Virus record (IMG/VR): IMGVR_UViG_3300017963_000724
Span: 1-24,665 of that record
From: a virus
Reading direction: 5' to 3' (one strand)
Length of the DNA stretch: 24,665 nt
The position numbers and the translations under genes are program-made. A model generated the notes under the pieces. It worked only from the letters and a program-made list of their open reading frames with translations, searched no databases and had not been told where the DNA came from. Positions within the stretch are counted from its first letter, which is position 1, and each line of letters opens with the position of its first letter. This document shows positions 15,498 to 16,970 of the stretch, one piece after another.

Positions 15498-15801
15498 GGA
15501 AGTACTCCTTTGCTTTGGGGGCTCTCTTGAACTTTTCAAGGTAGATTGACGCTTTGGCTCGTAGCATATCTTCTTCAAAGCCGAAGAAATCCGATAGTCC
15601 GCTTAGCTCTTCTTGCGACGGCATCACGCGAAACACTCCTGACTCGAGCCTTTTCAACCTTGGCATTGCGATGTTTGAATGCTCGGCGACCTTGTACAGC
15701 CTGATACCCAGTCGCTCTCTAGCTTCGTAGATGATTTCGTGAAAGTCCATGCTTTCCGACTGCTCTTTCACTTCGTTAATTATGCGATCAATTTTTTTCA
15801 T
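15484..15801 (-). CDS. XRE-family helix-turn-helix regulator
   Basis: A 105-residue protein coupled to the O gene by ATGA. Residues about 22-75 match an XRE helix-turn-helix: IIYEARERLGIRLYKVAEHS, then MPRLKRLESGVFRVMPSQEE, then LSDFFGFEEDMLRAKA. The recognition helix would be in IAMPRLKRLESG. In lambda the position after O is occupied by the helicase loader P. Nothing here resembles a loader, so the phage either uses host DnaC or encodes a loader elsewhere. It may regulate the control region or act as a late repressor of replication genes. Confidence 0.75.
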   Translation of the reverse strand: MKKIDRIINEVKEQSESMDFHEIIYEARERLGIRLYKVAEHSNIAMPRLKRLESGVFRVMPSQEELSGLSDFFGFEEDMLRAKASIYLEKFKRAPKAKEYFRGPS

Positions 15802-16709
15802 TTAAGTCTCCATTTCCTAAGGGCGTTATCAACCTGATCTTTGAAACCTTTTTCTTTGTAGCTTATGAAATCCTGTTTTGAACATGTGGGATGTGTGCTG
15901 TAGATTAGTAATCCTTCCCTTTGCGCCTCGAGTGCTATGCTCATACTTGGCGCTCTTTGCAAGTTGAAGTTGTCTGCCACCCGCTTAGCAAATGTTACGT
16001 TGTCCTCAGCCTCTGCGATTCCATTACGCTTCTTTTCCTTTACCTTTTCTTCATTCACTGCATCAGCGACCCATCGATTTATGGATCTAGCATCGTTTTT
16101 CTTCCACTTTGACTTGGGAGTATCTTCTTTCCACTCCTGCAATCTGTCATACAAAAGCTCGACCTTCTCCTCGCCATATTTGTTGCAAAGGTCGGTATGC
16201 TCGTTAACGCTTGTCTCCACATTTTCCCTTCGTTTGATCTTTTTTGGAGTAACGGGAGCGCGAGGAGGCGAAGCCGACCCCTCTCTCTCTTCTTTTTTTA
16301 GGTTTTCTTTTGTAGGTCTTTCTTTTGTGGGTGCGCTGAGAGTACTACCCTGGTGTTCTGAGAGTACTACCCCTGGTGCGCTGAGAGTACTACCCCCATC
16401 CTCTGAGAGTACATTGACTTCATATCGGTTGGGTGCGGGATCTCCATCTTTTGTTTTACTTTTTATCTTATTGATGAGTCCGTACCCTTCTAGATTTGTG
16501 AGTGTTTTAACCAATGATGAGCGGCTGGATAATCCCGTCATGTCCATGATTTGCTTTAGGGAAATCTTATCCCTCGATTTGTGCCATCCAAAAGTTTTTC
16601 TACAGATACAAAGCAAAACTTTAAACTCAGCAGGTGTAAGCTTTTCCATCCAATAGTCGAAAATAACATTTGGTATTTGTGTGTAATTTGGAGTAAAGAT
16701 CTGACTCAT
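15798..16709 (-). CDS. Replication initiator, lambda O-like
   Basis: A 303-residue protein with SD GGAGGTA. Residues about 1-100 are a winged-helix domain of the phage replication protein O type: NYTQIPNVIFDYWMEKLTPA, then FKVLLCICRKTFGWHK, then ISLKQIMDMTGLSSRS and LEGYGLINK. Residues about 100-135 are a low-complexity linker encoded by DNA iterons. The C-terminal part is charged and helical, probably the helicase-loader contact. O-type proteins bind origin iterons and load host DnaB. The iterons lie inside this gene, in the linker region, exactly as in lambda. The protein is thus likely to bind its own coding sequence. No polymerase or helicase is in the window, so host replisome use is expected. 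Confidence 0.8.
   Translation of the reverse strand: MSQIFTPNYTQIPNVIFDYWMEKLTPAEFKVLLCICRKTFGWHKSRDKISLKQIMDMTGLSSRSSLVKTLTNLEGYGLINKIKSKTKDGDPAPNRYEVNVLSEDGGSTLSAPGVVLSEHQGSTLSAPTKERPTKENLKKEEREGSASPPRAPVTPKKIKRRENVETSVNEHTDLCNKYGEEKVELLYDRLQEWKEDTPKSKWKKNDARSINRWVADAVNEEKVKEKKRNGIAEAEDNVTFAKRVADNFNLQRAPSMSIALEAQREGLLIYSTHPTCSKQDFISYKEKGFKDQVDNALRKWRLK
16281..16412 (-). other. Probable replication origin: four iterons plus asymmetric tract
   Basis: Three identical copies of CTGAGAGTACTACCC (16336-16350, 16358-16372, 16381-16395) and a fourth partial copy, CTGAGAGTAC (16403-16412), are spaced 22, 23 and 22 bp, about two helical turns. Each contains the palindrome AGTACT or its half. Spacing is not a multiple of three, so they encode alternating peptide sequences, meaning DNA not protein is conserved. 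Beside them (16281-16335) is an almost pure pyrimidine strand with T-runs. Lambda has the same plan inside its O gene: iterons followed by an A/T-rich strand-asymmetric segment. Confidence 0.75.
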
Positions 16710-16792
16710 TTTTTACCTCCACGCAACATGAATGTTATCAGAAAGATATGGAAATAAATGGTGGGTATGGTATAGTGTATTCGAGCTATCAT
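16706..16792 (-). CDS. Possible 28-residue membrane leader peptide of O
   Basis: An ATG at 16792 is preceded by AAGGA in the last copy of the upstream repeat array. The frame runs 28 codons through a hydrophobic stretch (IYFHIFLITFML, residues 13-24) to a TGA that overlaps the O start codon as ATGA. This fits a small translationally coupled membrane peptide or a leader that regulates O translation. It is short and could be accidental. Confidence 0.3.
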   Translation of the reverse strand: MIARIHYTIPTIYFHIFLITFMLRGGKK

Positions 16793-16970
16793 AAGTTTTT
16801 GATCCTTTTTTGAGATTTATGGCAGTGAGTTTTCATCAGAATTTTAATCCTTTTTTAAGATTTTGATGTTGTTTTCATAAGGTTTTGATCCTTTTTTGAA
16901 GTTATTTTTAATTTCATAGAGGTTTTGATCCTTTTTTGAAGTTTTCAACATGAAATGGCCCTTTTTGGGG
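16789..16970 (-). repeat. Direct-repeat array of 40-45 bp with SD-like cores
   Basis: Four copies share the core TTTTGATCCTTTTTTGA on the plus strand (GATCC starting at 16801, 16887 and 16927; AATCC at 16846), with a fifth degenerate copy GGCCCTTTTTGGGG near 16958. Spacing is about 45, 41 and 40 bases. Read on the minus strand each unit is AAAAAAGGATCAAAA followed 8-16 bases later by an ATG. It could be a second set of protein-binding iterons, or an array of translation-start-like units in the O leader. Confidence 0.7.

Follow-up and report, generated by a model that had tools for sequence, protein, structure and literature searches.

A probable lambda-type replication origin inside an O-type initiator gene and the conserved DNA element beside its iterons

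The window, a stretch of viral DNA of 24,665 nt, contains an O-type replication initiator gene of 303 aa on the minus strand (15798..16709). The product of this ORF matched Phage_rep_O (PF04492; E 3.8e-13; 50.2 bits against a curated cut-off of 28.7) and the PHROG for O-like replication initiation (E 5e-22). An AlphaFold model built from 46 aligned relatives contained a confident winged helix at residues 14–98 (H14-23, H26-40, E46-48, H51-58, H63-75, E79-82, E95-98; high pLDDT), and this model and the PF04492 match located a predicted N-terminal winged-helix origin-binding domain at residues 9–83 (16461..16685, minus). Residues 101–140 were disordered in the model (pLDDT 35–48), and the iterons and A-rich segment described below are encoded exactly there. 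The C-terminal domain (residues 156–299; 15813..16244, minus), with pLDDT values mostly of 82–98 that dip to 63–70 near residues 191–210, is presumed to recruit the replisome. By the model and its pLDDT profile, the protein consists of a winged-helix N-domain, a flexible linker, and a separate C-domain. A fold search of the PDB returned winged-helix proteins as weak matches (best E 6.5e-3), and the matches in a viral structure library included GpO-type proteins (E 7e-9).

Compared with aligned phage homologues, the window protein has one extra residue (about 61–63) just before the recognition helix, which could relate to the half-conserved iterons of the window. Separately, a 521-aa ORF at locus L458 (G094 match), from a different Chlamydiae-phylum genome, matches the C-terminal 33 residues of the window protein with 71% identity. 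Because the match is confined to these residues, the C-terminal tail of O may be a mobile module.

Exact copies of CTGAGAGTAC were found at 16336-16345, 16358-16367, 16381-16390, and 16403-16412 (plus strand), all within the O-gene linker, and no further copy free of mismatches occurred in the window. Their spacings of 22, 23, and 22 bp agree with the initial annotation, which had placed four iterons inside the initiator gene and described them as read in two alternating frames. In gene sense (minus strand), the copies of GTACTCTCAG begin at nucleotides 298, 320, 343, and 365 of the gene, with codon phases of 0, 1, 0, and 1. Across 100 dinucleotide-shuffled versions of the window, the number of copies of any 10-mer within 80 bp never exceeded two, against the four observed. 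The 15-mer CTGAGAGTACTACCC was shared by three copies, and the fourth (16403) read ...GTACATTG; of the iteron originally written with a bracketed TACCC, the 10-mer core occurs four times and the 15-mer that includes TACCC only three times.

With borders set by analogy with the family register (-21..-3), the iteron units lie on the minus strand at 16398..16416 (iteron 1; core GTACTCTCAG at 16403-16412, right arm AGGAT, the most degenerate copy), 16376..16394 (iteron 2; core 16381-16390, right arm CGCAC), 16353..16371 (iteron 3; core 16358-16367, right arm AACAC), and 16331..16349 (iteron 4; core 16336-16345, right arm CGCAC, 2 bp before ACAAAAGAAA). The right half of the window iterons is degenerate, in contrast to most relatives, whose iterons contain a clear inverted repeat of 5 bp; by inspection, the window copies match at 3 of 5 positions of the dyad arms.

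On the 3' side of the iterons in gene sense lies an A-rich, strand-asymmetric segment (16278..16329, minus), presumed by analogy with lambda to be the DNA unwinding element. The sequence after the iterons, CCCACAAAAGAAAGACCTACAAAAGAAAACC, contains ACAAAAGAAA twice with a 15-bp period: a first copy (16319..16328, minus), assigned as the family-wide origin element from its conservation in the family, and a second copy at 16304..16313 (minus). The far end of the presumed unwinding region is a 22-nt purine-only run, AAAAAAAGAAGAGAGAGAGGGG (16278..16299, minus), which on the plus strand is the pyrimidine-only tract already noticed beside the iterons; the ACAAAAGAAA pair between this tract and the iterons was absent from the initial annotation. 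The A-rich segment ranked as the 21st weakest of the 871 40-bp intervals of the gene in thermodynamic stability. Its candidacy as the weakest 40 bp of the gene was rejected, as two other places were slightly weaker.

This layout corresponds to that of lambda (J02459, 39034-39160), where the annotated iterons lie in the O-gene linker at spacings of 20, 24, and 23 bp (22, 23, and 22 bp in the window) and are followed by ACACAAAAGACACTATTACAAAAGAAAA, A-rich and strand-asymmetric, with ACAAAAGA again 15 bp on, the same period as in the window. The plan proposed at the outset, iterons followed by a strand-asymmetric segment in the O linker, is therefore matched by the lambda record. The AT-rich segment of lambda nearly has ACAAAAGAAA, its often-seen repeat included, and the window has it exactly. 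The two initiators belong to the same Pfam family, PF04492, with low protein identity; their iterons are unrelated (ATCCCTCAAAACGAGGGA in lambda, GTACTCTCAG with a degenerate right half in the window), and a P-type loader gene lies beside O in lambda, whereas none was recognised in the window. The origins of the Stx phages P27 and 933W resemble that of the window in lying inside O with iterons and an AT-rich tract, and their iteron number and linker length vary; they differ in having lambda-class iterons in six copies and enterobacterial hosts (PMC7466680).

A search of viral contigs with the window protein alone returned no relative, and alignment-based searches were required. A lambda-seeded alignment search returned mostly near-copies of lambda, and a scan of the genome collection gave 3 relatives. 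Relatives were chosen by N-domain motifs, independently of the element, and the sample comprised 321 O-like genes from viral contigs, genome contigs, phage records, and lambda, forming 98 clusters at 70% identity. A linker repeat (at least 14/19 identity at a lag of 19–26 bp, the repeats falling at 22–26 and nearly all at 22–24) was present in 88 of the 97 testable non-redundant genes, compared with 3–6 genes when the tails were codon-shuffled, and the lag was not a multiple of three in 62 of these 88. Counted from the downstream motif, the repeat unit is sharply bounded at -21 and -3, and its dyad arms span -17..-13 and -7..-3 (complementarity 0.71–0.79 against a median of 0.22). This arm and border analysis took the first ACAAAAGA in each linker, which in the window and some other genes is a chance earlier copy; an unsupervised analysis and the registered set gave the same register.

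Iteron-arm similarity increased with N-domain identity, from 0.28 below 30% identity to 0.89 above 70% (Mantel r 0.28, p 0.001). The iteron sequence varies between phages and tracks the DNA-binding domain, a relationship of which relatedness alone could explain part. The comparison of O linkers among relatives that the initial annotation had suggested as a check thus revealed a repeat architecture that is kept and an iteron sequence that varies between phages. Retention of the peptide with loss of the repeat, the result it had named as contrary, was not the pattern found: under the kept architecture, repeat sequence and peptide both change.

Beside the iterons, ACAAAAGA occurred in 68 of the 98 linkers, against 5.8 expected. 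ACAAAAGAAA is present in most genes, 1–3 bp past the last iteron and often repeated 15 bp on; when placement was determined independently of the motif, 41 of the 52 genes with ACAAAAGA near the iteron end had it starting 1–3 bp after the last iteron. The motif is in frame 0 in 35 genes of the registered exact set, in frame 2 in 15, and in frame 1 in one, with seven frame changes on the best tree, at least three of which are forced by well-supported branches. The same DNA is translated as TKE or, in other genes, as TQKK or PQKK. Of 66 linker TKE tripeptides, 65 are encoded as ACA-AAA-GAA, a choice expected in about 16% from background codon use, and linker xQKK is CACAAAAGAAA in 24 of 29. Positions C1 and G6 of the motif are nearly fixed in the registered set, the registration having used ACAAA, which covers C1 and not G6, and the flanks are A-rich well beyond the motif itself. 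The element is present in a contig of a Planctomycetota MAG and, in diverged form, in one of a Chlamydiae MAG.

We also scanned viral contigs for CACAAAAGAAANNNNNACAAAAGAAA using no protein information, and at least 120 stretches matched. Among the matches listed, 79 of 80 loci were O-type: 72 lay in an O-like ORF by profile, and seven, whose ORFs run off the contig or locus, were judged O-type from their linker and C-terminal sequence; the one unrelated locus was L395. The 80 listed loci include many near relatives and represent 49 distinct contexts. As a control, a scan with the pattern reversed, which leaves its composition unchanged, gave 4 matches, none of them O-like. Given the two reading frames with switches between them, the TKE codon bias, and the retrieval of O-type origins by DNA pattern, ACAAAAGAAA is, on the evidence of sequence, a signal conserved as DNA and not as peptide.

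The genes downstream of O are P in lambda, a gene for an IstB/DnaC-like ATPase in locus L256, one for a DnaB helicase in locus L278, and, in the window and its closest full-length relative (L092), genes for an HTH protein, a zinc protein, and RusA. No helicase or loader was found among the window ORFs scanned (20 with Pfam and 20 with PHROGs, partly overlapping), in a record that may be incomplete. Since the element occurs beside P, an IstB/DnaC-like ATPase, a DnaB helicase, or no recognised loader, it is independent of any one loader kind.

L092 is a contig of the Chlamydiae MAG K1000_chlam_2 whose O protein is 44% identical to that of the window over its full length, in a similar gene order (HTH, zinc protein, RusA, RecT, YqaJ). 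Its iterons, GGTGGTCCAACCATTAGACCA at 23 and 24 bp, occupy the same place but are unlike those of the window; CAAAAGAAAG repeats follow them, and the first copy of the element is diverged (TCAAAAGAAA). The window large terminase had no match in the L092 genome, so that the common module may be the replication-recombination module only. The tailed-phage-like module of L092 (O, RusA, RecT, YqaJ) is binned with a chlamydial genome, as either a true prophage or a binning artefact. A chlamydial host for the window was considered but is not put forward: 3 of 234 Chlamydiae genomes gave a match, at full length in the L092 genome only.

The locus has the anatomy of an origin, this anatomy is conserved, and selection acts on it at the DNA level. 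With binding, unwinding, and helicase loading taken by analogy from the lambda model, in which O acts on iterons, the A-rich region opens, and helicase is loaded (PMC7466680, PMC5043065), we consider it very probable that the locus is a lambda-type origin within its own initiator gene. The O-type protein would use its N-terminal winged helix to bind the four GTACTCTCAG iterons, and O dimers on the iterons would form a compact nucleoprotein assembly that would open the adjoining A-rich segment, starting with ACAAAAGAAA. The opened strand would receive the host replicative helicase through the C-terminal domain and host factors; the host enzyme is invoked because the record yielded no recognisable gene for a helicase or loader. 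In this mechanism, the iterons would provide private specificity and ACAAAAGAAA a common part for unwinding or single-strand contact.

It is barely credible that the iterons and A-rich tract are instead kept for their peptide, as a flexible repeated linker (VLSE/STLSA, TKE..TKE) with no origin role. The model does leave this in-frame linker disordered, and TKE is common at the equivalent place in relatives, but the two frames of the iterons, the 62 of 88 family lags that are not multiples of three, the codon choice in 65 of 66 TKE cases against the predicted 16% or so, and the repeated frame switches that turn the same DNA into TQKK or PQKK all argue against this; no set of relatives was seen in which the peptide is retained but its synonymous sites are randomised. 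Plasmid iterons can serve in initiation and in autoregulation or copy-number control, and the array could be an autoregulatory operator of O or a copy-number (handcuffing) site instead of a replication start. We regard this as highly improbable, because a pure operator would need no A-rich element, whereas in most of the family the iterons stand at a fixed distance from a conserved A-rich element, an arrangement also present in lambda, whose A-rich element becomes unwound (PMC7466680, PMC5043065).

A further alternative bears on a single mechanistic step and leaves the origin assignment intact: O may not read ACAAAAGAAA, the sequence being kept solely because an A-rich tract melts or bends easily or because a host protein binds there. 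This is a real possibility, if somewhat short of an even chance. A-richness extends well past the motif, and A-tract bending is known at the lambda origin; however, A-richness leaves the near-fixed C1 and G6 unexplained, which favours reading of ACAAAAGAAA by O. The persistence of the element beside such different partners as lambda P, the ATPase of L256, the DnaB of L278, or none recognised, and its occurrence in the Planctomycetota contig and, diverged, in the Chlamydiae one, also count against this alternative.

The origin of the window adds a new member, with an iteron sequence of its own, to a known kind; stated generally, the family-wide element may be new. In the open literature searched, no description of a conserved ACAAAAGA element in O-type origins was found, a scope that makes the absence a weak one. 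How origins open after iteron binding by initiators is still debated (PMC5043065, PMC10797057). The chances appear evenly balanced that ACAAAAGAAA is a universal single-strand element of the O-initiator superfamily, read sequence-specifically in analogy with the DnaA-trio, while iterons diversify freely from lambda to phages of other phyla. If so, lambda-type origins could be found from DNA alone, and the specificity module (iterons) would be separate from the opening module. The origin lies within the gene of the protein that would recognise it, as in lambda, and across about 100 genes the repeats vary and the adjoining ACAAAAGAAA is near-constant; a fixed element beside freely changing iterons, selected as DNA in a coding gene, would point to a part that every O protein must use. 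Testable predictions are strand-specific single-strand binding (lambda O, ACAAAAGACACTATTACAAAAGAAAA) and synonymous mutants that are dead for replication. The pattern, with 79 of its 80 listed matches O-type, offers both a DNA-only way to locate origins in phages and a handle for such tests.

In a scan of 2.9 million viral contigs, paired GTACTCTCAG was found in no other O-type gene; the six contigs returned comprised a long repeat array (twice), L007 with its TrfA-type initiator, and further non-O contexts. Because the window iteron is unlike that of lambda and its pairing occurs in no other O-type gene scanned, it is likely to confer a private specificity. The new specificity proposed in the initial annotation thus stands as to sequence, and as to function it is likely yet unproven. 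A private iteron sequence is the rule across the O-type family and no surprise. The plasmid-like contig L007 carries the GTACTCTCAG 10-mer five times at spacings of 22–31 bp adjoining an initiator gene, as in the window, but its iterons lie outside the gene and its initiator belongs to the TrfA family (PF07042, E 7e-12). The 10-mer is most likely common to both by chance. L007 itself combines five CGACCGTACTCTCAGTGATG iterons, the TrfA-family initiator, and a ParA-like gene (1500-1640, 1663-2238), and no plasmid records matching its iterons were found.

The GC skew of the window turns near 16–18 kb. An inflection at the locus had been anticipated, but this is also where gene direction changes between leftward and rightward, so the skew adds nothing independent. 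Upstream of O, four AAAAAAGGATYAAAA repeats (minus strand; 16797-16811, 16842-16856, 16883-16897, and 16923-16937) are spaced 40–45 bp apart, with ATGA within about ten bases after each, and resemble either a reiterated ribosome site with a start codon or a set of operator sites; the corresponding region of L092 has no direct repeats. A reading frame of about 30 codons (about 16710–16801, minus), read by eye, starts at the last AAAAAAGGATYAAAA repeat, and its TGA overlaps the ATG of the O gene, which suggests that this short frame is translationally coupled to O.
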